DNA of 64,000 nucleotides from positions 2,756,501 through 2,820,500 of the forward strand of contig NC_018870.1 of the NCBI RefSeq assembly GCF_000305935.1, read 5' to 3'. A program made the translations under genes and the position numbers. Below the pieces are notes generated by a model. That model saw only the letters and a list, made by a program, of their open reading frames with translations. It had not been told where the DNA came from and did no database searches. Below are positions 27,238 through 42,200 of the stretch, piece by piece; the first letter of the stretch is position 1, and each line of letters starts with the position of its first letter. The DNA is from Thermacetogenium phaeum DSM 12270. GTDB taxonomy: Bacteria > Bacillota > DSM-12270 > Thermacetogeniales > Thermacetogeniaceae.

Positions 27238-28665
27238 TTACTCCCCTAGCTCTCTTTCTGCCCTGGCGATGATTTTGTCGAGCTCGGCATCAACTTCGGG
27301 GCTGAGCGGCTCCACCCGGTGCGACGCCAGCAATTCCTTTGCCTTCTCCCTGGCGATATCTTCAAGCCTGGGGCAACCCCTGGCCTCCCACTCTTCAAAG
27401 GTCAGGCGCTGGGAGATCACCGGCCTCCAGAGTTCACCCGCCCGCAGGTGCTTTCTCGTGTGCTTGTGCTCGAGGAAGCTGATCCCCTTTTCCACCACCT
27501 CGTCGACGATGGCCACGGCCAGTTTATCCTCATTGACCTCCAAACCCTTAACAGTATGCTGGATGATGGATGACATCTCATTGTCGATGACCAGCATCTC
27601 GTAGCTCCCTACCAGGGCGTTGTCGACGCTACCGGCGGTGCCACAGAAGTCGATCCCGATCAAGGCAGGCAGGAGGGCGTTGTAGATGCGCTCGTACCCG
27701 CTCTGGGCATCCGCCGCCTTGGAGGCACCGGTAAAGCAGCCCGCCCCGCGGGCAATCCCGTAGTGCCTGGCCAGCTGCACCGCCAGGGCTCCACCGATTC
27801 CCATTTCCGGTATCGCCCAGAGCGCCACCCCTGTTCTCATGTCCATAATGCCTCCCGCCCGCGGCGACATCACCACCCGATGGCCGGGGCTCATCAACTG
27901 GCAGGCGATGACTGCCGCCAGTATTTCGGCATTATGCTGGGCGACATTGCCCAGGATAGTAATGGGGGAGGTTGCTCCCATGATGGGAGCGGGATCGATA
28001 CCTAAGGGCAGACCTGCCTCTACCACATCCATCAAGGCCTCAGCAGGCCCCGTACCGAAGTCCAAAGGGCTGATGGGGGAAACCTCATAGTAGCCCAATC
28101 CCTTCTCCCGCAGGGCCTCCTCGCTACCCGCTACGGCCAGCAAGACATCATGAATATAAGGCCATTCATCATGCGACTCCAGGCAGAGCCTGATCGGCTT
28201 CGTCGTGTTGCGCAGCAACGTCGCAGCTTCGATGGTTACTATTGCTTTTTGAGAAACATCGCGCGGGTAGAGAGGGGAGACGACGTTGATAAATTCCAGG
28301 GCATCGGCCAGGCGTGTGAAGTCCTGAAGGTCCTTCAAAAGGGCATCCCTTCTCTGCCCTGTTTCCAGATCGATCACCGCCGGCATGCCTACACATACCT
28401 GTCCGTAGGCCCTGTTCCGGCACAGCTCGAGAACATGCTCTCCGTTGCGGCTGGTGATCTCCCACGGCCCGGGGACGGACTTGAGCGCCTTTTCGATGAC
28501 ATCATCGGTAAAGGTAATGCGGTCCTTCTTCTCCTTACACCCGTTGTCCAACAAGAGGCTCCTGAACTTCGGCGAGGTCGTTCTGATGCCGGTGTTTTTC
28601 AAAATCTCCACACTGGCCTCATGCACCTTCATCAATTCTTCTTCCGGCAATATTTCGAATTTCAT
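27238..28665 (-). CDS. MttB-superfamily methyltransferase without pyrrolysine (candidate quaternary-amine methyltransferase)
   Basis: A 475 aa corrinoid-dependent methyltransferase of the trimethylamine methyltransferase superfamily. It aligns by eye with the upstream mttB (NAEILAAVIACQLMSPGHRVV and IDNEMSSIIQHTVKGLEVNEDKLAVAIVDEV blocks). Where mttB has its in-frame UAG, this protein reads CFTGASKAADAQ with no stop. Known non-pyrrolysine members include MtgB, which demethylates glycine betaine. The BCCT transporter downstream and corrinoid gene upstream support that type of substrate. Confidence 0.88.
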   Translation of the reverse strand: MKFEILPEEELMKVHEASVEILKNTGIRTTSPKFRSLLLDNGCKEKKDRITFTDDVIEKALKSVPGPWEITSRNGEHVLELCRNRAYGQVCVGMPAVIDLETGQRRDALLKDLQDFTRLADALEFINVVSPLYPRDVSQKAIVTIEAATLLRNTTKPIRLCLESHDEWPYIHDVLLAVAGSEEALREKGLGYYEVSPISPLDFGTGPAEALMDVVEAGLPLGIDPAPIMGATSPITILGNVAQHNAEILAAVIACQLMSPGHRVVMSPRAGGIMDMRTGVALWAIPEMGIGGALAVQLARHYGIARGAGCFTGASKAADAQSGYERIYNALLPALIGIDFCGTAGSVDNALVGSYEMLVIDNEMSSIIQHTVKGLEVNEDKLAVAIVDEVVEKGISFLEHKHTRKHLRAGELWRPVISQRLTFEEWEARGCPRLEDIAREKAKELLASHRVEPLSPEVDAELDKIIARAERELGE

Positions 28666-28692: not shown

Positions 28693-29334
28693 TTAAGCAG
28701 TCCTGCCTATAAGCCGCCTGGCAAGCTTCACTGCGGTCGTGGCATCCTCGGCATAGCCGTCGGCTCCGATCTGGTCGGCCCAGGTCTGGTTGATAGGAGC
28801 TCCCCCGATCATCACCTTGACCGAATCACGGAGCCCTTCCTCCTTCAATGTTTCGATGATCTCCTTCTGCTTGCCGACGGTGGTCGTCAGTAAGGCCGAA
28901 ATACCGACGATGTCGGGCTTCAATTCCTTGATCTTTTCGATAAATCTGTCGGTGGGAACGTCGACCCCGAGGTCGATCACTTCAAACCCCGCCGACTTCA
29001 GCATCATGATGACGATATTCTTCCCTATCGAATGCAGGTCTCCGTGCACCGTCCCCATGATCACCCGGCCGATAAACTCCCTGTTGACACCTGCCAGCAG
29101 GGGCTCCAGAACGGCGATCCCGGCTTCCATAGCCTTAGCCCCGAGCAGTAAATCCGGAAGGAAATACTCCCCGGCTGCGAAGCGGTCGCCGACCACTTCA
29201 ATCCCCGGGGTCAAACCCTCGTTGATTATCCTCAAGGGTTCAATACCGGCCTCCAGGGCCTTCCGGGTCAGCTCTGGAACCGCATCTTCGTCCCCTTCGA
29301 TCACCGCCTCCGCTACTTCCTTCAAGATATCCAC
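28693..29334 (-). CDS. Methyltransferase corrinoid protein (MtbC/MttC-like)
   Basis: A 213 aa methyl-carrier with a helical cap (residues 1-85) and a B12-binding domain. The Co-ligand motif is GDLHSIGKN with His at about 101, followed by VIDLGVDVPTDRFIE and a GGAP motif near 180. It lies 28 bases before the non-pyrrolysine MttB homologue, its probable partner, and just after mttB. The same fold recurs four more times in the window. Confidence 0.92.
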   Translation of the reverse strand: MDILKEVAEAVIEGDEDAVPELTRKALEAGIEPLRIINEGLTPGIEVVGDRFAAGEYFLPDLLLGAKAMEAGIAVLEPLLAGVNREFIGRVIMGTVHGDLHSIGKNIVIMMLKSAGFEVIDLGVDVPTDRFIEKIKELKPDIVGISALLTTTVGKQKEIIETLKEEGLRDSVKVMIGGAPINQTWADQIGADGYAEDATTAVKLARRLIGRTA

Positions 29335-29417: not shown

Positions 29418-30899
29418 CTATTTCTTCTTGAGGCCGTACTCCTCTTCGGCCTCTTCGACGATCTCCCTGATCTTCTCCGGCACACCCGGCGGCAGCGGTT
29501 CGGGTTTATGGGTTTCCAGTATATGGATGGCTTCCTCGTAGGCCCTGGCCGTCAGATCCTTCCCGCCCTTTTCGAGCCAGGCATCACGCATCCGGCGATC
29601 GAGCAGCTTGCTCTGAGACTGTTCTTTCCTGAAGTTCTTGAAAGTGTGCTCCTTGGTCACGAATTCACCGGAGGATCCCACCTCCTTGATGAGATCCACG
29701 GCGAGGGTATCGTCATTGACCGGAATTCCCTGGAGCACCCTGTTGATCATCCTGGCGATCTCGTTGTCAATTACCATCTGAGCGAAATCGAAAGTGACCC
29801 CCAGTTCCAGCATCCCCAGTCCGTAAATCAGGTTCGCGCCACCTAGCGCCGCCATCAGACCGGTGATGGTCTTTTCGTGAGCCGCCTGGGCGTCGGGAAT
29901 CTTGCTGTCAGCCTATCCTCCGGCCACCCAGCTGGGAAGGAGATAGTATTGGGCCAGCTGGGCAACTGCTGCATTGATCATCCCCAGCTCTGGAGAACCG
30001 ACGGGGGCGGTTGCCGTCTTCAGGTCCATAATGGTGGTGGAGCTGCCGTAGATAACCGGTGCCCCCTTGCGGGTGGCCTGACTCAGGACGATCCCGCCCA
30101 GCACTTCAGCGTTGTGAGTCACCAGCGTTCCTGCCAGGGTAACCGGCGACGTTGCCCCCGCCATGGCCATGGAGATGAAGCAGACGGTGATCCCCTGCCG
30201 GGCGGCCTCGATGACGATGTCGCAGCACTCGGTTGCAACCAGCTTCAAGGGGCTGGTCGGACAGACAATGGTGCTGTAGATCGGCCTCTCCCGAAGCTTG
30301 TCCTTGCCGCCCACGATGGCCGCCGCCATCTCCACGATCTTCTTGAAGTTCTGGACGTTCATGGCGCCGATGAAGCAGTGCTTGGAAATATTGGGGAAGA
30401 TGGCCTCGGCGTTGTGCAACGGCTGCACCGGACCCGGCATCTCGTCGGCGCCTACCGCCCTGTTGTGCACCACGACCTGGTCAAGGGCATCGCAGATGAG
30501 GGCAGCTTTGGCCACATCGTCCTTGGTGGAGGGCCGGTACTCCTTAGTGTAGGGGTCGATGACCCGCAGCCCCTCGCCGAAATTCAGGAAACCGACGCGC
30601 TTGCCATCGATCACGTAGTCGTACTTCGGGTTCCTGCCGGCCAGGACGATGGTGCTGGGGGCAGAGCGGATGGCATCTTCCACCAGGTACGGGGGGAACT
30701 TGACGATCTCTTTTTCCTCGTCCACGATCGCCCCCGCTCCGTCCAGAATCTCCCGCGCCTCCTTGCTCCCGACATAGAGCCCGGTGTCGCGCATCACCTC
30801 CAGTGTGGCGCAGTGGATGGCAAACAACTCGTCTTCGCTAAACATTCTCAACCCGATTCCGTCAACCCGGCTGAATCCCGCCTGTAAGCTTCTGATCAA
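29418..30899 (-). CDS. mttB: Trimethylamine:corrinoid methyltransferase, pyrrolysine-containing (in-frame UAG)
   Basis: Removes a methyl group from trimethylamine and passes it to a corrinoid protein. The ORF is split by a TAG at 29913-29915. Both halves are in one frame and together give 493 residues, the family length. The context is WVAGG-(TAG)-ADSKIPDAQ, matching the pyrrolysine site of archaeal MttB (residue 329 here, 334 in Methanosarcina from memory). A nearby tRNA-Pyl supports decoding. The start is TTG, four bases after GGGGGGAG. The final stop is also TAG. Corrinoid genes flank it on both sides. Confidence 0.95.
29913..29915 (-). other. In-frame UAG read as pyrrolysine in mttB
   Basis: The minus-strand codon TAG sits between GTG GCC GGA GGA and GCT GAC AGC AAG. 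No frame change is needed to join the halves, and the flanking residues are the most conserved in the family. Read as a true stop it would remove the last 164 residues. Confidence 0.93.
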
Positions 30900-30911: not shown

Positions 30912-31559
30912 TCATTTTTGAATGAGTTCCAGGCACTTCTTCACGGCATCGGAGGCATCCTCTCCGTATGCATCGGCGCCGATCTTGTCCGCCCAGCGCT
31001 GGGTACAAGGCGCTCCGCCGACGATGGTTTTGAACCTCTCTCTCAGCCCCCGCGCCCGCAGCTCATCCTCGAGCTTCTTCTGCTCTGCCAGGGTCGTCGT
31101 GAGGAGGGCGCTGGTTCCGATGATATCGGCATCAACCTTGATCGCCTCCTCGATGATCCTGTCCACCGGGACATCACGCCCCAAATCGATGACCTCAAAA
31201 CCCTGAGTTTTTAGAAGAGAGATGACTATCCCCTTGCCGATGTCGTGAACATCGCCTTCAACGGTGGCGATGAGAATGGTCGCCTTTTTGTCCTGGGCGG
31301 CCCCTCCGGCGATGGCCTCCTCCAGAACCCCGGTGACCTTTTTCATCACCTCGGCGGAGAGAATCAGTTCGGGAAGAAAGATCTCACCGCGCCCGAACAT
31401 ATCGCCGACCTTCCTGATCCCGGCGCTGAAACCCTCGTTGAGAACGCCGACGAGATCCAGACCGGCATCAATGGCCTGCCTGGCCACGGCCACCGCCTTA
31501 TCCTCATCACAATTGGCGATGGCCTCCTGTGCTTCCTTGATAACCTCTTCCCAGCTCAA
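30912..31559 (-). CDS. Methylamine methyltransferase corrinoid protein (MtbC/MttC-like)
   Basis: A 215 aa methyl carrier with the Co-ligand motif GDVHDIGKG (His at about 105), a helical cap and a C-terminal GGAPCTQRWADKIGADAY segment. It lies between mtbB (14 bases upstream) and mttB (12 bases downstream), so it may serve dimethylamine or trimethylamine demethylation or both. Sequence alone does not settle the partner. Confidence 0.93.
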   Translation of the reverse strand: MSWEEVIKEAQEAIANCDEDKAVAVARQAIDAGLDLVGVLNEGFSAGIRKVGDMFGRGEIFLPELILSAEVMKKVTGVLEEAIAGGAAQDKKATILIATVEGDVHDIGKGIVISLLKTQGFEVIDLGRDVPVDRIIEEAIKVDADIIGTSALLTTTLAEQKKLEDELRARGLRERFKTIVGGAPCTQRWADKIGADAYGEDASDAVKKCLELIQK

Positions 31560-31573
31560 CTGTCGCCCCTCCT

Positions 31574-32965
31574 TTAAAGCATTTTCACCTTGCGTTTAAA
31601 GTTTTCAACGGAATTGATCTTGATATCCAGCAGTCTGGCAATGTTGAACTTGGCTTCGATCCCGTAGGATGCCCGGTCGCGCGCCTGCACATGACCGATA
31701 TCCAGCTGCTCCCGCAGCTCTTTCATTACATAGGAATCACAGAGATCGAAGACAGAGATCCCCAGCTTCTCGGCCACATATTCCTTGGCTTCTTTGATCT
31801 TCATGGCCTTGGACATTTGGACACGTGCCACCAGATCTCCGGCGGTACGAATTCCGCCCATGCCCGCAGCCACTTCGTGGGCGATGGCCATTCCGTAGGC
31901 ATCGCCGTGGCCAATCTACAACCCGTCGGCCTTTCCTATTTCAACAAGAGCCTTCGAGGCCCGAGAGGTGGCATCGGTAGGCGCCGTGTTGGTCAGGGGA
32001 ATCGCCCCTACACCCATGCCGGCGTTGACATGGACCGGTATGTTCGACGCCTCCGAACAGGCCTTGGTAAAGGTGACCGCCCGGGCCAGGTTCCAGGGGA
32101 AGGACTTGCTGCTGTTGGTGTTGATCACCGCTCCGAAAATGCTGCCCCCAGCCTTTTCCACCACCTTCGCCTGATCATGCGGATAAAGCCCGGCCAGCCT
32201 CACCCCGTCATACTCCAGTCTGCCGTGCATTCCCAGCACGAACTCCCCGGCCATCCCCACCTCGATGGCCATATCGGGGTACTTCTTCTTTAAAATTTCC
32301 ATCGCTTTGAGGGTGGCCAGAAAATCGCCGTCACCTGATGCCCCCACGGTGTCGAAGTTGATCCCGTCGGCCCCGGCCTCATAGAGAATGCTGGCTATGT
32401 AGACCATATCCTTGGCCGCCATCTCCACGGCCTCCTCCTGGGCCGCCCTGGCCTCCTTGATCTTCGCCATCGGGAGCAGCTCGGACCAGTTGTCGATGGG
32501 CCCGTCGGGCTTGGTGTACAGCCCCAGATTCGGCATCGCCCCGTAAAACACCGGAATCACGCAGTTGAGCTGGATCAGCTCCATGGAGGCTGCCTCTTCG
32601 TGCACGAAATTCTTGAGCTGCTTATAGCTGTAATCTGTGCTGCAGAGCTCCATGGTATCGGAACAGAGCGCCCTCTCATGGATAAGGACGGTGGTCATCC
32701 GGTCCACCGGTATCCCGGCGCGGACTGGCAGCTTCAAGGTGCCGGCGTCAAAGGTTCCCACCACCTCGTTGCCGCGCTCGATGCTCACCGTTTTCTGAGG
32801 ATCGGTAACGATCTCGAAAAGCCTCTGCATCTCGTCATCGGTGAGTTCCGGTATCCGCCCCCGCTCGGCGGCATCCAGCATCCCTTCTTCGAGCTCCCGG
32901 CGGATCTCCGCCTCGCTCAACCATACAGCAGATCCATCGCCCATTCTAGTGAAAAATTCTGCCAC
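31574..32965 (-). CDS. mtbB: Dimethylamine:corrinoid methyltransferase, pyrrolysine-containing (in-frame UAG)
   Basis: Demethylates dimethylamine to monomethylamine. A TAG at 31916-31918 splits the gene; joined in frame it has 463 residues, near the archaeal length. The context GKADGL-(TAG)-IGHGDAYGMAIAH corresponds to GVDGI-O-IGVGDPLGM of Methanosarcina MtbB. The N terminus FFTRMGDGSAVWLSEAEI, HGRLEYDGVRLAGLYPHDQA and NTNSSKSFPWNLARAVTF match the family. Starts GTG ten bases after AAGGAGGG; ends TAA. Residue 350 is the pyrrolysine site. Confidence 0.95.
31916..31918 (-). other. In-frame UAG read as pyrrolysine in mtbB
   Basis: TAG lies between GAC GGG TTG and ATT GGC CAC GGC. The frame continues without shift into 114 residues of conserved C-terminal sequence. 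A truncated product would lack the barrel end that holds the active site in this family. Confidence 0.93.
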
Positions 32966-34549: not shown

Positions 34550-34565
34550 TGCAAGTTTAATGCCA
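34550..34565 (-). promoter_or_regulatory. Sigma-54 promoter (-24/-12) of the aminotransferase-mtbB-mttB operon
   Basis: Minus-strand TGGCAT-TAAAC-TTGCA, with exact GG-N10-GC spacing, differs from the consensus TGGCAC-N5-TTGCA at one base. It lies 92 bases upstream of the aminotransferase ATG. A GATTTAAC octamer is found 100 bases further upstream (34665-34672, minus strand). Confidence 0.8.
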
Positions 34566-34683
34566 GCCCAAAGATGCCGGTGAGTACGGCGCCATTCTCC
34601 CGCAACGGGCGCTACCTGACAGGCTAATCACACCAGAACAGCAAGTCAGCGGTGCCTGAAATAAGTTAAATCCGCAAAATGGG

Positions 34684-34968
34684 TTACCTCTCCCGGAACA
34701 TCTTCAGCATTCGCTCGGTAACCGCAAACCCGCCCACCAGGTTGACGGTGGCCAGCATGATAGCGATAAACCCCAAAGCTTTGTTATGTGTCGCCGCTGC
34801 CAGAGCGGTAGCCACCAGGGAACCGAGGATGGTGACACCCGAAAGGGCGTTCATCCCCGACATCAGCGGCGTATGCAGCAGAGAGGGCACATCTCTGATC
34901 ACCTTATATCCGGCCGCCGTGGCAACCACAAAGATAAGAATTAATGCCAGAGGGCTCAACCCCTTCAC
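34684..34968 (-). CDS. pntAB: NAD(P) transhydrogenase subunit alpha part 2 (PntAB)
   Basis: A 94 aa membrane subunit with three helices: LALILIFVVATAAGYKVI, then MNALSGVTILGSLVATALAAA and ALGFIAIMLATVNLVGGFAVTERML. The stop is TAA. The GTG at 34968 lies only one codon after the pntAA TAG and in the same frame. A TTG three codons later (34959) has better spacing from AGGGGGTG. It forms the proton channel with PntB. Confidence 0.92.
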   Translation of the reverse strand: MKGLSPLALILIFVVATAAGYKVIRDVPSLLHTPLMSGMNALSGVTILGSLVATALAAATHNKALGFIAIMLATVNLVGGFAVTERMLKMFRER

Positions 34969-34971
34969 CCC

Positions 34972-36150
34972 CTAGGCAATCAGCCTCATCGCTTCCAGGG
35001 CGCCGGCGTGGACTACCTTGCCATCCCTGGTAACGAGGGAGGAGGCGATAATCTCATCATCGGGATCGAGCACCACCCGACCGTCCTTGACCAGGTAAGC
35101 AACGAAGTTGTATATGTTATGGGCAAACATCCAGGTGGAACTCACCGGAACCATGCCCGGGATGTTCTTGGTGCCGTCAATGCTCACTCCATAGAATTCC
35201 TTGACCTCCCCGCCAACAGTCAGGGCGCAGTTCCCCCCCTGGTCGATGGCGATATCGATGATCACCGAGCCCGGCTTCATGGATTTGACCATCTCCTCGG
35301 TGATCAGAACCGGCGCCACTTTGCCGGGAACGAGGGCCGTGAGGATGATGATGTCTGCCTTTTTGACCGCCTCTTGAATTGCCTCTCTCTCCTTGAGCAA
35401 CCACTCTTCCGGAAGGTGGTTGGCATAGCCGCCCTTGCCCACGGCCACTTCGGCAGGAACGCCGGTTTCCACGATTTTTGCCCCCAGGCTCTTCGCCTGC
35501 TCCACGGCATCCGGCCTGATATCCACTGCATAGACGACCGCCCCCAACCTCTTAGCGGTGGCGATAGCCTGCAAACCGGCCACACCGGTTCCGATGACCA
35601 GCACCGTCGCCGGCTGAATCACCCCCACCGCCGTGCCGGTCATGGGCATGAATTTCGCCATGCGGTTGGCGGCCATGAGCACCCCCTTATATCCGGCGAC
35701 CGTGCTCATGGAGGTCAGGGCATCCATGGACTGGGCGCGGGAGATCCTGGGAATACCGTCCAGCGTCAGGCTCACCACCCCCTTCGCCGCCAGGTCCTTG
35801 ACCATCTGGTGGTTCGGGGGAGCTGCCGGATGAATAAAGGTCACCAGCAACTGCCCCTTATGCATCATTTCAACCTCATGTTTCCCCTTTGTCTCGTTGA
35901 AAAGGGGTTCTTTGACCTTCATAACGATGTCGGCCGCAGCGTAGAGCTCCTCGACATCCCGAATCAGCTCCGCTCCGGCCCGCCGGTATTCCTCATCCTC
36001 GATATAGGCAAGCGCCCCGGCGCCACTCTCCACGAGGACCCTTGCTCCGCCGTCGACGAGCTTTTTCACCGTTTCCGGTATGGCGGCAACCCTCCGCTCG
36101 CCATGCATGATCTCTTTGGGAACACCGACCGCAAGACCCTTAAACTGCAT
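34972..36150 (-). CDS. pntAA: NAD(P) transhydrogenase subunit alpha part 1 (PntAA)
   Basis: The NAD(H)-binding domain I of proton-translocating transhydrogenase, 392 aa. VGVPKEIMHGERRVAAIPETV, VIQPATVLVIGTGVAGLQAIATAKRLGA and the VIIDIAIDQGGNCALT block are all present. I chose the ATG at 36150, preceded by AGGAGGT ten bases upstream. The stop is TAG, followed in frame by GGG and the pntAB GTG. A sigma-54 promoter precedes it. Confidence 0.95.
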   Translation of the reverse strand: MQFKGLAVGVPKEIMHGERRVAAIPETVKKLVDGGARVLVESGAGALAYIEDEEYRRAGAELIRDVEELYAAADIVMKVKEPLFNETKGKHEVEMMHKGQLLVTFIHPAAPPNHQMVKDLAAKGVVSLTLDGIPRISRAQSMDALTSMSTVAGYKGVLMAANRMAKFMPMTGTAVGVIQPATVLVIGTGVAGLQAIATAKRLGAVVYAVDIRPDAVEQAKSLGAKIVETGVPAEVAVGKGGYANHLPEEWLLKEREAIQEAVKKADIIILTALVPGKVAPVLITEEMVKSMKPGSVIIDIAIDQGGNCALTVGGEVKEFYGVSIDGTKNIPGMVPVSSTWMFAHNIYNFVAYLVKDGRVVLDPDDEIIASSLVTRDGKVVHAGALEAMRLIA

Positions 36151-36266
36151 TTTCTGGCCTACCTCCTTTGTTCTCAAAATCTGTTCGCTACATCTCCAGC
36201 TACCACTAGAAGCAAATCGCCAGGTCAGTGGGATGCGCGGTGCATCCCTGCTGCCAACAAAGACCT

Positions 36267-36282
36267 TGCAAATCCAGTGCCA
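36267..36282 (-). promoter_or_regulatory. Sigma-54 promoter (-24/-12) of pntAA-pntAB
   Basis: Minus-strand TGGCAC-TGGAT-TTGCA is a perfect match to the sigma-54 consensus. It lies 117 bases upstream of the pntAA start. It is divergent from the equally perfect promoter at 36437, with 154 bases between them. Confidence 0.88.
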
Positions 36283-36350
36283 ACGAAAAAAGCCCGCTGC
36301 TGCGGTTCATCATTCTCAAAAACTCTTTAATTCTGACTTGATTGTTTCAC

Positions 36351-36436: not shown

Positions 36437-36452
36437 TGGCACGGAAATTGCA
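36437..36452 (+). promoter_or_regulatory. Sigma-54 promoter (-24/-12) of the corrinoid-pylB-pylT unit
   Basis: TGGCACGGAAATTGCA matches the consensus TGGCAC-N5-TTGCA exactly. The corrinoid protein ATG follows 80 bases later with a GGGAGGG ribosome site. The transcript could continue through pylB and pylT, as no terminator is evident in between. Confidence 0.88.
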
Positions 36453-36531: not shown

Positions 36532-37170
36532 ATGGGTAAATTCGATGCAATTCAGCAAGCGGTTATCGAGGGAGATGTGGAACGGGTCAAGAACCTGGCG
36601 GCAGGGCTGCTCGCTGCAGGTGAAAACCCGCTCGCTATCATCGAAGAAGGCCTGATCGCCGGGATGAATGTCGTAGGGGTGAGGTTTAAAGAAGGGGACA
36701 TGTTCGTGCCGGAAGTGATGATGTGCGCCAACGCCATGAACGCCGGCGTTGAGGTAGTAAAGCCGTCGGTGCAGGGGGAGAAGATCAAGTCCGCCGGCGT
36801 CGTTGTCATAGGAACGGTGAAGGGTGACCTGCACGACATCGGGAAAAACCTCGTCTCAATGATACTGCGCAGCGCCGGGTTTGAGGTCATCGATCTCGGC
36901 GTGGACAACCCACCGGAGAAGTTCGTCGCCGCCATCAATGAGCACAATCCGCACATCGTCGGGATGTCCGCCCTTCTGACAACAACCATGCCTGCCATGA
37001 AAGAAACCATCGATGCCATCACCGAGGCAGGTTTGAGGGATAAGGTGAAGATCATCGTCGGCGGCGCACCGGTGTCCCGGGAATTCGCCGGGGAAATAGG
37101 CGCGGATGGATACGGGGATGATGCCATCTCGGCGCGCGACGTCTGCCTGGAGCTGGCCGGGCAGCAGTAA
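36532..37170 (+). CDS. Methylamine methyltransferase corrinoid protein (MtbC/MttC-like)
   Basis: A 212 aa methyl carrier with Co-ligand motif GDLHDIGKN (His at about 101) and a GGAPVSREFAGEIGADGY C-terminal segment. It is the first gene behind the plus-strand sigma-54 promoter and precedes pylB by 285 bases. No methyltransferase gene is adjacent on this strand, so it probably works with the divergent mtbB/mttB operon. Confidence 0.93.
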   Translation: MGKFDAIQQAVIEGDVERVKNLAAGLLAAGENPLAIIEEGLIAGMNVVGVRFKEGDMFVPEVMMCANAMNAGVEVVKPSVQGEKIKSAGVVVIGTVKGDLHDIGKNLVSMILRSAGFEVIDLGVDNPPEKFVAAINEHNPHIVGMSALLTTTMPAMKETIDAITEAGLRDKVKIIVGGAPVSREFAGEIGADGYGDDAISARDVCLELAGQQ

Positions 37171-37455
37171 TCCCTGTGCCGAAGATATTCCCGGCAACAA
37201 CACGTTGAATCCTTTTTTCGTTCCTCTGTTGGTGCCGCCGCTGGCGGTATGGTAGTCTATTGATTTATAATTGATATCGGGGAACCGTTCCTCTGCCACC
37301 GATCATCACGCAGGAGACAGCAGAGGGATCAACCAGCAGTCGCCACTCTGGACACTAAAATGAATGGTTCCTCGATATTAATTTTTTTCATAAGCGTTGC
37401 AACCTGTCGGATTCCGGCGAAAGTCTTGAAAAAGCCCCACCCTGGGGTAGGGGGG

Positions 37456-38607
37456 ATGGCATTGGCTGCACTAAGAAACCAAAGCGAGCACCGCCTGGAA
37501 GGCATTCTGGAGAAGGCCGGCCTTCTCCAAGAGCTGACCGACCGGGAGGCGGCCTTCCTGCTCGGACTGCAAAGCAGGGATGATCTGGACAAACTCTTCA
37601 GAACCGCCCGCTCCTTGAGGGAGAGGTTCTTCGGCAACAAAATTTTCCTCTACGGTTTTATTTACCTCTCCACCTGGTGCCGCAATAACTGCACGTTCTG
37701 TTACTACCGGAAATCAAATTCTAAAAGCGTGCGCTACCGCAAAACGGCCGAGGAGGTCCTGGACGCCGCCGCCAGGCTGGCCGCATCCGGGGTCCACCTG
37801 ATCGACCTGACGCTGGGGGAGGACCCGTACTTCCACAATCGAAAAGAGGGCTTTCAGCCGCTGATCGCCCTGGTCCACCAGGTTAAAAAGCGGACAGGCC
37901 TCCCGGTCATGATCTCCCCCGGAGTGGTGCCCGGCCGCATCCTGCAGGATTTCGCCACCGCCGGAGCGGACTGGTACGCCTGTTACCAGGAAACGCACAA
38001 CGAAAGGCTGTTTGCTGAACTGAGGCTCGAGCAAAGCTACCAACAGCGCCTGGCGAGCAAGGAGGAAGCGCTCCGCTGCGGCCTGCTGGTGGAGGAGGGA
38101 ATCCTGACCGGTATAGGGGATACCGAAAGCGACATCATGCTTTCCCTCCAGGGAATGCGGCAGCTGCAAGCACAACAGGTGCGGGTGATGAGCTTCGTCC
38201 CCCAGCAGGGGACGCCGCTCGCCGACCGGGAGACACCGGCGCGCATTCGCGAACTGAAGATCATCGCCGTGATGCGCATCCTCTTCCCGGACCGGCTGAT
38301 CCCGGCCTCTTTGGATGTAGACGGCGTTGCCGGACTGCGGGATAGAATCAACGCCGGGGCCAATGTGGTCACATCGATCATACCCCCCTTAATGGGGCTG
38401 GCGGGAGTCGCTCAGTGCAGAAGGGATATCGACGAGGGAAACCGCACGGTGGCGGGAGTTCTCCCCTTCCTGGAGGAGATGGGGCTGACCGCAGCAACCG
38501 CCGAGGAATACTTAAGCTGGGTAGAAAAGGAGAAGGCGAAACTTATAAGGCTGCACGGTACCTGTCTCAGCGGCAGCAATCCTTTCTCAGAAATTTCTCA
38601 TCAATAA
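37456..38607 (+). CDS. pylB: Methylornithine synthase PylB (radical SAM, pyrrolysine biosynthesis)
   Basis: Radical-SAM mutase that turns lysine into 3-methylornithine, the first step to pyrrolysine. The [4Fe-4S]-SAM motif is CRNNCTFC (Cys 75, 79, 82). It is followed by VDLTLGEDPY-like IDLTLGEDPYFH, MISPGVVPG, YQETHNERLF, VEEGILTGIG and FVPQQGTPLA, plus SLDVDGVAGLRDRINAGANVVTSI, all as in archaeal PylB. The 383 aa length is slightly long. The start may be ATG 37456, TTG 37462 or a longer ATG at 37360. pylC, pylD and pylS are not adjacent. Confidence 0.94.
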   Translation: MALAALRNQSEHRLEGILEKAGLLQELTDREAAFLLGLQSRDDLDKLFRTARSLRERFFGNKIFLYGFIYLSTWCRNNCTFCYYRKSNSKSVRYRKTAEEVLDAAARLAASGVHLIDLTLGEDPYFHNRKEGFQPLIALVHQVKKRTGLPVMISPGVVPGRILQDFATAGADWYACYQETHNERLFAELRLEQSYQQRLASKEEALRCGLLVEEGILTGIGDTESDIMLSLQGMRQLQAQQVRVMSFVPQQGTPLADRETPARIRELKIIAVMRILFPDRLIPASLDVDGVAGLRDRINAGANVVTSIIPPLMGLAGVAQCRRDIDEGNRTVAGVLPFLEEMGLTAATAEEYLSWVEKEKAKLIRLHGTCLSGSNPFSEISHQ

Positions 38608-38698
38608 AAAAAAGGAGATCCGCGCATTATGTCGAAAAAGATACTATAACCTGATGATTCATCATCTCTGCCGGTCATTTTTCTGCCGATGGGTTTAC

Positions 38699-38770
38699 GG
38701 GGGGTGGATCGGAAGGATCGCATAGACTCTAAATCTATGTAGCCGGGTGCGACTCCCGGACTCCCCGCCA
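38699..38770 (+). tRNA. pylT: tRNA-Pyl (amber suppressor, anticodon CUA)
   Basis: A 72-base tRNA with encoded CCA. Acceptor arm GGGGGGT pairs with ACTCCCC. The D stem GATC/GATC holds an unusually small five-base loop GGAAG. The anticodon stem has six pairs (CATAGA/TCTATG) with loop CTCTAAA and anticodon CTA at 38729-38731. The variable region is three bases. The T stem CCGGG/CCCGG lacks the usual TTC loop (TGCGACT). The short D loop, single base before the D stem and six-pair anticodon stem are diagnostic of tRNA-Pyl. It lies 92 bases after pylB and is probably cotranscribed. Confidence 0.96.
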
Positions 38771-38856
38771 GTTTTCTCACCCTTCTTGAACAAACCGCAA
38801 TCCGAAGCCTCTTCCACAGTGATTTTAGCGGCTATCCAAAAAGGGGGGTCTTGAGG

Positions 38857-40515
38857 ATGATTCCAAATATGGGTGTGGTTTTCACTTCTCAGGGGGGGGA
38901 GATCATCGCCTATAATGAAGTGGTGGAACGCCTTTTCCCTTCCATCCCGTCCAATATTCGGGATATCAGCGCTGAGATCGGCGACAGGGATTCGGAAATT
39001 CAAATCACAAAGGTGGATCTCCGTTCCCCGGCGGCCGACAACCCCGGGTTGAATGCCTACCTGTTACACCCCCAAGATCAACTCCCCACCGCCTGCTGCA
39101 GGCAGGAGACAGTACCGGCCGGGATGAAAAACCTGAAGAGCGAAGCGCTTCGTCAGGCCCTCGACATGTCCTTCGATGAAATATTCATCGTAGACAAGGA
39201 CGGCTACATCCTCTTTGTCAACAAGGCGGTGGAAAGGCACTACGGAATCAAGAAGGCCGACATCATCGGCAAGACGGTTTTTCACTTTGCAGACCGGGGA
39301 ATTTGGGAGCCGCCGATCTTTCCCATAGTCATGAAAGAGAAAAAGATGGTCACCGTGCTTCAGGATACCGCCGTCGGGAAAAAGCTCCTGGTCACCGCCA
39401 ATCCGGTATTCAACGAGGCCGGAGAGATCGTCATGATCGTCGAAAACGCCCGGGATATAACAGAACTGGAACAACTGAAGATGCACCTCAGTGAGGCTCA
39501 AAACATGGCCACCAAATACAAGTGCCAGCTGGAAGAGCTGCTTAAAAAGGAACTAGACCTGGGCGGGTTCATCATTCACAGTAAAAAAATGCAGGAAATC
39601 GTCCAAATGGCCCAGCAGGTGGCCGCAACCGACTCCACCGTGCTAATCCTAGGGGAAACGGGTGTCGGTAAAAGCCTTCTCGCCAAATTAATCCACAAGC
39701 TGAGCAGGAGAAGCAAGGGGCCCTTTATCACCCTGAACTGCGCAGCTCTCCCCGAACAGCTTTTCGAATCCGAGCTGTTCGGATACTCCCCCGGCGCCTT
39801 TACCGGGGCCAGCAGAACGGGAAAAATAGGCCTCATCGAACTGGCAGAAGGAGGCACCCTGTTCCTGGACGAGATCGCCGAGATACCGCCGAGGCTGCAG
39901 GCCAAACTCCTGGAGGTCATCGAGGAGCGCCAATTCATCAACATCGGCGGCAAGGCCCCCAAGAAGATCGACGTCCGGATCGTGGCGGCCACCAACCGCG
40001 ACCTTAAAAAGTGCGTCGCCAGCGGCTCTTTCAGAGAGGATCTTTACTACAGGCTGAACGTCATCGAGATCACGATCCCCCCTTTGCGGGAGCGGACGGA
40101 TGAAATAATCCCTCTGGCAGAGCACTTTCTGGCCACCTACAACAGAAAGTACGGCACCAGCAGGCGCCTTTCCGAAGATACCCTGGACATGCTGCTCTCC
40201 TACTCCTGGCCGGGCAATGTGCGGGAGCTCGCCCATGTCATCGAAAGGCTGGTCATCACCGTACCGGAGGATGTGATTAAACCGCAATACCTTCCCCACC
40301 TGACGGTCAGAACGAAAGAAGAGGAAATAGACGAAGGAGAGCTTTCCGTCACCAAGCTGATGCCGCTCGACCGCGCTCTGGAAAAGGTCGAAAGAGAACT
40401 GGTAACAGCGGCCTTTAAACGGCTGAAAAGCTCCTATAAGGTCGCCAAGGCTCTGGGCATCAGCCAGAGCAAAGCCTACAGACTGATGCGCAAGTTCAAC
40501 TGCGAGGGTGAATGA
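38857..40515 (+). CDS. Sigma-54-dependent transcriptional activator with PAS domain
   Basis: About 552 aa. A degenerate PAS-like head (1-75) and a PAS domain (about 98-210) precede the AAA+ domain. The AAA+ domain has Walker A GETGVGKS (about 266-273), the sigma-54 contact loop GAFTGA (about 313-318) and FLDEIAE. It ends in a Fis-type helix-turn-helix, [20 protein letters not shown]. The ATG is eight bases after AGGGGGG. Four sigma-54 promoters within 6 kb make it the likely activator of the methylamine, pyl and pnt units. The signal sensed by PAS is unknown. Confidence 0.93.
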
Positions 40516-40565: not shown

Positions 40566-41954
40566 CTATTGAATCTCCCTGGTCAGCTTTTCTACCGTTT
40601 CGGCAGCATCCCCCTGCAGCAACACCACGTTCGGCCGGTCATAGAGGGGGTTAGGCACTCCTGAATACCCCGGCTTTGTATCCATGTTGCAGACCACCAC
40701 GTACTTAGCCTCATCCACCCTGAGGATGGGCATTCCGTAAATCGGTGTCCCCTCAGCGGTGATGGCGGCAGGGTTGACGACATCGCACGCTCCGATGACG
40801 ACAACGACGTCCGTATCCTTAAACTCCGGGTTGATGGCTTCCATCTCATAAAGCCGGTCATAGGGAACATCCACTTCCGCCAGGAGAACGTTCATATGGC
40901 CGGGCATTCTTCCCGCTACCGGGTGGATGGCGAACTTGACCTCCTTCCCCTGTGACTCCAGAACATCTAAGAGCTTTTTCACTTGCCACTGGGCCTGGGA
41001 GACGGCCATGCCGTATCCGGGGACAATAATCACCTTCTGGGCCTCCTTGAGGAGGGAAGGCGCATCCAGGCTCTTCTCGCTCTCTGCAGTGCCGCCGTTT
41101 TCTCCGGCGGCCGGGCTCAAGAGGGAATCCCCCGCCAGATTAACCGCGGCCACACTCCCGTTCAGCACCTCCAGCAGGGAGCGATTCATAGCCCTGCACA
41201 TGATCCCGGTGAGGATGATGCCGGCCGCACCGACAATCGCCCCCACACTCACCAACAGGGGATCCCCAATGGTCAGGCCGCAGATGGCTCCCGCCAGCCC
41301 GGAATAGGAGTTTAAGAGAGAAATCGTGATCGGCATATCGGCGCCGCCCACCCGTATGGCGAAGAGCACACCGAAGCCCAGGGAGAGCAGCGTCACCAGC
41401 ACGGAAACCACCACGGCAGCGGCGGCAGAACCGAAGGAGCCCGCTGCGACCAGCACCCCCAGAATGAGGAGGCAGAGGGCGTTGACAACATTATGCCCTT
41501 TGATGACGAGCGGCTGTTGAGGAATGCGCCGGTCCAGCTTCCCGGCGGCGATCAGACTGCCGCTCAAAGTGACCCACCCTACTACCAGGGCAAGCTGACT
41601 GGTGAAGCGGCTGAAAAGCCCCATTTCCGGATAGGTCTCAAAAATCACCACCAGGGCCACCAGGGCGGACGCCCCACCCCCCAGCCCGTTGAACAGACCC
41701 ACCATCTGCGGCATCTGGATCATGGCAACCTTCATGGCCATCAAATAGCCGATGATCGCGCCCAGCAGAACGGCAAGCCACAAGACCGGAACATCGGCGA
41801 TCCCGTTGTAAAACAACACCACCAAAACGGAAACAAACATGCTGAGGGCTCCCAGGCGGTTCCCCAGCACAGCGGTCTTTGGTGAGCTCATCAACTTAAT
41901 TCCGTAAAGAATGACAACTGCCAGCACAATTGTAACAACTTCATAGAACCCCAA
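40566..41954 (-). CDS. pntB: NAD(P) transhydrogenase subunit beta (PntB)
   Basis: Membrane and NADP(H)-binding subunit, 462 aa. Residues 1-270 hold about eight helices with GLFNGLGGGASALVALV. The C-terminal domain III has VPGYGMAVSQAQ and VVVIGACDVVNPAAIT plus PILRVDEAKYVVVCNMDTKPGYSG. It is separated from pntAA/pntAB by 4.4 kb, unlike the usual single operon, but has its own sigma-54 promoter, so the parts can still be coregulated. The stop is TAG. Confidence 0.95.
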   Translation of the reverse strand: MGFYEVVTIVLAVVILYGIKLMSSPKTAVLGNRLGALSMFVSVLVVLFYNGIADVPVLWLAVLLGAIIGYLMAMKVAMIQMPQMVGLFNGLGGGASALVALVVIFETYPEMGLFSRFTSQLALVVGWVTLSGSLIAAGKLDRRIPQQPLVIKGHNVVNALCLLILGVLVAAGSFGSAAAAVVVSVLVTLLSLGFGVLFAIRVGGADMPITISLLNSYSGLAGAICGLTIGDPLLVSVGAIVGAAGIILTGIMCRAMNRSLLEVLNGSVAAVNLAGDSLLSPAAGENGGTAESEKSLDAPSLLKEAQKVIIVPGYGMAVSQAQWQVKKLLDVLESQGKEVKFAIHPVAGRMPGHMNVLLAEVDVPYDRLYEMEAINPEFKDTDVVVVIGACDVVNPAAITAEGTPIYGMPILRVDEAKYVVVCNMDTKPGYSGVPNPLYDRPNVVLLQGDAAETVEKLTREIQ

Positions 41955-42184: not shown

Positions 42185-42200
42185 AGCAAATATAATGCCA
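42185..42200 (-). promoter_or_regulatory. Sigma-54 promoter (-24/-12) of pntB
   Basis: Minus-strand TGGCAT-TATAT-TTGCT has exact spacing and one deviation in each half from the best consensus. It lies about 230 bases before the pntB start. GATTTAAC occurs 83 bases upstream at 42283-42290. The remainder of the 41955-42420 gap has no gene I can support. Confidence 0.75.

Follow-up and report, generated by a model that had tools for sequence, protein, structure and literature searches.

The complete pyrrolysine gene set of Thermacetogenium phaeum is split between two loci, with pylB and pylT next to a sigma-54 activator gene

Pyrrolysine (Pyl), the 22nd amino acid, is built out of two lysines by PylB, PylC and PylD, and its tRNA, tRNA-Pyl, is charged by PylSc and PylSn. 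Bacteria in which many genes end in UAG have to avoid damage from a UAG-reading tRNA, and the one case studied has a substrate-dependent switch: Acetohalobium arabaticum is reported to express Pyl in dependence on trimethylamine (PMC11467909). A Chem Rev review describes the bacterial pyl clusters as variable yet compact and depicts that of Desulfitobacterium as one cluster, in agreement with the contiguous order given in the preliminary description of the DNA studied here. Among archaea, Ca. Methanomethylophilus alvus carries pylB ~0.7 Mb from pylTSCD (PMC3941956). Separation of pylB and substrate control of pyl genes are thus both known; within the open-access literature, we found no report of sigma-54 control of pyl genes and no paper linking sigma-54 or RpoN to pyrrolysine. 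T. phaeum, a heat-loving acetate-oxidizing bacterium, has the full gene set for reading UAG as pyrrolysine, and we describe here how this set is arranged.

In the window, by which we mean the whole 64-kb stretch of DNA analysed, located at 2,756,501-2,820,500 of the chromosome, pylB and pylT are separated by 91 bases and enclosed by two further genes of the same orientation:

36532 to 37170, plus strand: MtbC/MtgC-like corrinoid protein, the first gene after the best sigma-54 site (TIGR02370, B12-binding domains)
37456 to 38607, plus strand: pylB, 3-methylornithine synthase, a radical SAM enzyme (TIGR03910, match to PDB 3t7v)
38699 to 38770, plus strand: pylT, amber-decoding tRNA-Pyl with encoded CCA (ARAGORN, fold, relatives)
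38851 to 40515, plus strand: PAS / AAA+ / HTH sigma-54 activator, the proposed methylamine-Pyl regulator (domain matches)

The preliminary description had recognized the tRNA as tRNA-Pyl by its CTA anticodon, five-base D loop and six-pair anticodon stem, and this identification was borne out. ARAGORN called a tRNA-Pyl (cta) at 38699-38770 as the sole tRNA of the window, and the sequence folds into an acceptor stem of 7 bp, one linker base, a D stem of 4 bp with a D loop of 5 bases, an anticodon stem of 6 bp (extended by a closing G-U in the computed structure) with CTA in a 7-base loop, and a T stem of 5 bp. The tRNA, present in one copy in the genome, shares 67-69 of its 72 bases with the tRNA-Pyl of related pyl loci. 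The adjoining gene was likewise correctly named as pylB. Its open frame begins at 37360, the likely start being the ATG at 37456, and the resulting protein of 383 aa scored 493 bits in a profile search against the TIGR03910 equivalog (cut-off 348), matched the solved PylB structure 3t7v at 2e-89 and retains the CxxxCxxC motif as CRNNCTFC; a family search found no other PylB above cut-off in the genome. The flanking genes proved to be those expected, with a score of 216.3 bits for the corrinoid protein against TIGR02370 (cut-off 215.3) and matches of the activator to Sigma54_activat (235.9 bits), PAS and HTH_50. The activator likely starts at 38851 or 38857, and its sequence contains the GAFTGA loop.

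Family searches found no pylS, pylC or pylD within the 64-kb window. The preliminary description had placed these genes elsewhere, adding that finding them just outside the window would make the locus ordinary and that their absence from the genome would cast doubt on its function. In family searches of the whole genome, PylSc, PylSn, PylC and PylD were each located at one place above cut-off (336, 118, 427 and 229 bits, respectively), and their adjacent, full-length genes form one minus-strand block in the order pylC-pylSn-pylSc-pylD at ~2,498,836-2,502,456 (locus L011). The block lies on the same chromosome ~291 kb from pylB (290 kb when rounded) and 254 kb outside the window. T. phaeum has the two-part bacterial synthetase, and its PylSc matches 3dsq, a solved bacterial pyrrolysyl-tRNA synthetase of the PylSc type, at 4e-98. 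At the block we found no second pylB or pylT, and a search of plasmid DNA gave no match. The pylC gene is preceded, in the same orientation, by a DUF1638 gene and one for a RACo-type corrinoid activator (L011 13486-16029), homologues of which also precede pylSc-pylD-pylT in Paradesulfitobacterium (L112); on its 3' side, the block is followed by genes for tRNA-Asn, tRNA-Met and tRNA-Val. Because the full-length pylC-pylSn-pylSc-pylD genes form this distant block, the pyl gene set of T. phaeum, with all six genes full length, is complete yet split between two loci; clustering of the genes is usual in bacterial pyl systems and is not one of their defining traits.

The preliminary description had omitted the Pyl-using genes mtbB and mttB, which are found in the same window as pylB and pylT and on the opposite strand:

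31574 to 32965, minus strand: mtbB, dimethylamine methyltransferase; its Pyl codon is the TAG at 31916-31918 (Dimeth_Pyl matches in both halves)
30912 to 31559, minus strand: corrinoid protein between mtbB and mttB (B12-binding domains)
29418 to 30899, minus strand: mttB, trimethylamine methyltransferase; its Pyl codon is the TAG at 29913-29915 (MTTB matches in both halves)
28693 to 29334, minus strand: corrinoid protein after mttB (B12-binding domains)
27238 to 28665, minus strand: MttB-family methyltransferase without internal TAG (MTTB family, no stop inside)

The Rfam models PYLIS_2 and PYLIS_3 match mtbB (61.1 bits) and mttB (86.3 bits), respectively, and begin at the TAG in both cases; the models largely describe conserved coding sequence, and the matches therefore mark the Pyl codon of the family and do not prove an RNA signal. 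In the alignment, the TAG of a second Pyl-type mttB at 712,625-714,022 falls in the same column (GG*xDSK), and the genome contains five further full-length MTTB-family genes without a stop; no member of the MtmB (monomethylamine methyltransferase) family was found in the genome. A short MttB-family fragment with a 74-aa frame (G000:C1 190528-190692, L126) is probably a truncated gene. The terminators of mttB (29418-29420 of the window), pylSn (L011 11798-11800) and pylD (L011 9837-9839) are themselves TAG, so Pyl insertion could extend their products, and the terminal TAG of the second Pyl-type mttB (L127 12063-13577) is directly followed by another stop, making a tandem stop. The T. phaeum genome paper lists tri- and dimethylamine methyltransferase genes (Tph_c27660-27720) and reports that the organism does not grow on trimethylamine; the words pyrrolysine and pyl are absent from its text (PMC3551663).

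We searched the window for sigma-54 promoters with a weighted scan of the -24/-12 elements (GG, 10 bases, GC) and used first-order Markov sequences as the chance model. Five sites scored at least 17, where chance would give 0.37, and not one of 100 simulated windows reached four. Four of the five are intergenic within the methylamine-pyl island and represent the four best intergenic motifs of the 64 kb; they are given here with two tentative activator sites:

36437 to 36452, plus strand: sigma-54 promoter motif TGGCACGGAAATTGCA upstream of mtbC-pylB-pylT (maximum possible score, best of 64 kb)
36267 to 36282, minus strand: sigma-54 promoter motif TGGCACTGGATTTGCA, divergent, upstream of the transhydrogenase alpha / alanine dehydrogenase-like gene (second best in the window)
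34550 to 34565, minus strand: sigma-54 promoter motif TGGCATTAAACTTGCA upstream of the aminotransferase-mtbB-mttB genes (score 17.1)
42185 to 42200, minus strand: sigma-54 promoter motif TGGCATTATATTTGCT upstream of the transhydrogenase beta gene (score 17.1)
36334 to 36339, plus strand: TGACTT box between the divergent promoters, tentative activator site (top shared 6-mer, post hoc)
34643 to 34648, minus strand: TGACTT box upstream of the promoter ending at 34565, tentative activator site (same comparison)

The genome also contains a gene for RpoN. The genes for transhydrogenase alpha (34684-36177) and beta (40566-41954) flank the pylB-pylT unit on opposite sides, each with a strong sigma-54 motif upstream, which suggests that the regulon also covers NADPH balance. 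Here pylT has no sigma-54 site of its own and would be transcribed from the mtbC promoter; the 285-bp gap 5' of pylB has room for, and could hold, a separate pylB promoter. The scan found no sigma-54 site upstream of the pylC-D block or of the second mttB, and the proposed switch therefore leaves both unexplained.

For comparison, we annotated 80 PylB loci from genome contigs (L031-L110). In these, the 400 bases upstream of a pyl, mtb or mtt gene have approximately ten times the sigma-54 motif density of the remaining sequence; 13 of the sites precede a pylB, pylT or pylSn. The enriched motifs occur in Clostridia and in Sporomusa and its relatives, and bacterial pyl systems may generally be under sigma-54 control. 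In the activator tree, the T. phaeum protein forms one clade (100/99) with the activators at the pyl loci of Sporomusa acidovorans and Desulfosporosinus metallidurans, where sigma-54 sites precede pylT and pylB by 57-116 bp; the activators encoded next to pylT in Formimonas and Paradesulfitobacterium do not belong to this clade. A search for upstream activating sequences by repeats alone recognized none. TGACTT is the commonest 6-mer in the seven regulatory regions of the activator clade, where it occurs in six, whereas 14 of 15 control regions lack it; as the comparison was post hoc and the chance of such a pattern is ~0.02 after correction for the number of 6-mers, we treat the box as a tentative lead. 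Taken together, the sigma-54 promoters, the linked methyltransferase genes and the relatives of the activator at other pyl loci support, and do not prove, the link of pylB-pylT to a methylamine regulator.

The split itself is most simply explained from the gene orders of related clusters. Family relatives carry a contiguous pyl cluster in the order B-C-Sn-Sc-D-T; a corrinoid gene (mtbC) immediately precedes pylB in 11 of the 80 loci, and in Paradesulfitobacterium and Formimonas a sigma-54 activator gene comes directly after pylT. Removal of the middle block from an ancestral mtbC-B-(C-Sn-Sc-D)-T-activator cluster would give exactly the observed locus, so a single relocation, suggested by gene order, is the simplest history. 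The four genes of the block are still together in their ancestral order, and the trees group PylC, PylSc and PylD with a family member (98/97). A candidate vestige of the pylSn start in the 91-bp gap between pylB and pylT (AAAAGATACTAT) was not significant, as 32% of mononucleotide shuffles scored as well.

With the genes, their places, the TAG codons, the motifs and the motif enrichment as observed above, we favor, at a probability of roughly 70%, the reading that half of a complete bacterial pyl system is located here, that its middle block was relocated, and that the activator and RpoN switch this half together with the methyltransferase genes. The most serious competitor, considerably less probable though one to be reckoned with, is that the two halves were acquired separately: an island with mtbB, pylB, pylT and the activator would have been transferred horizontally and replaced the resident ends of the cluster, leaving pylC-pylSn-pylSc-pylD as the old, vertically inherited block. 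The similarities to Formimonas fit this history, as its tRNA-Pyl is the closest to that of T. phaeum (69/72) and one MtbB copy of Formimonas is 79% identical to the T. phaeum protein, and the position of PylB in the tree is not resolved beside its family. However, constraining PylB to group with the family gives a tree as likely as the unconstrained one (AU P value 0.549), so that family descent is not rejected and a separate origin of PylB, which we tested, is not supported; the highest identity of PylB, 63%, is also to a family member. Mobile-element genes were not noticed at the junction on general inspection.

Decay offers a different account, in which methylamines are not used and the pyl genes persist without function. 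The reported lack of growth on trimethylamine (PMC3551663), the missing MtmB family and the truncated MttB piece at 190528 would fit, but the six genes are full length with proteins above their family cut-offs, the TAGs are at canonical positions with intact downstream halves, and the regulatory sites look intact, making decay rather improbable. That an assembly error broke up a contiguous cluster is very improbable: apart from the unusual layout nothing favors it, the genome was published as one closed chromosome of 2,939,057 bp (CP003732; PMC3551663), and each half has its own coherent neighborhood in continuous sequence without N runs.

Under the favored reading of relocation and joint control, pylB, which provides the first biosynthetic step, and pylT would function from within the methylamine island and pylC-Sn-Sc-D from an intact block, with all pyl products acting in trans across the two loci and tRNA-Pyl inserting Pyl at the in-frame UAG of mtbB and the two mttB genes. 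The activator and RpoN would probably induce mtbC-pylB-pylT together with the divergent methyltransferase genes, and through such joint switching the decoding of UAG as Pyl would be largely confined to times when methylamines or related substrates are available. We raise more tentatively, with the odds somewhat against it, the wider idea that a dedicated sigma-54 activator in a broad group of anaerobes controls the expansion of the code from UAG stop to pyrrolysine alongside the methylamine enzymes, the switch in T. phaeum having become restricted to pylB and pylT, with the synthetase and later enzymes outside. With pylB and pylT alone near an identifiable activator and textbook sigma-54 promoters, the locus provides named parts for testing. 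The ability of a pyl cassette to persist in pieces is also relevant to finding pyl systems in fragmented genomes.

Compared with known systems, the arrangement is uncommon and not without precedent, so that its description as unusual holds in part. A pylB followed directly by pylT was found in none of the 80 sampled loci. Flanking sequence of at least 6 kb is available on either side of PylB in 27 loci; the remaining pyl genes are all present in 16 of these, and several of the 27 show partial or full separation. The sole pylB of a deltaproteobacterial MAG is on a different contig from its C, D, Sc and Sn genes. Of the solved structures, those closest to T. phaeum PylSc are 3dsq and 2zni, both of the Desulfitobacterium enzyme. 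Desulfitobacterium hafniense shares the two-part bacterial synthetase with T. phaeum but has one cluster, as drawn in the review, with another gene order. Acetohalobium likewise has a bacterial pyl system switched by methylamine, for which the accessible part of the report names neither regulator nor promoter type (PMC11467909). In Ca. M. alvus, pylB is remote as in T. phaeum, but that system is archaeal and lacks PylSn, and its pylT stays with S, C and D. The four pylB copies of Ca. Formimonas warabiya DCMF all lie over 1 Mb from its pylD-pylT genes, which are followed by a sigma-54 activator and methylamine genes. One of the four copies has a sigma-54 motif 191 bp upstream, and the system is more dispersed than that of T. 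phaeum; the Formimonas chromosome (G021; L038, L111) has a single pylD. Syntrophaceticus schinkii and family relatives have the same six genes with separate PylSn and PylSc, the PylSc of the family members examined being 70-78% identical to that of T. phaeum, and in S. schinkii and two relatives a sigma-54 motif is located ~250 bp upstream of pylB. The cluster is contiguous in S. schinkii and these family relatives, whereas in T. phaeum a distance of ~291 kb separates pylC-Sn-Sc-D from pylB, and pylT comes directly after pylB.
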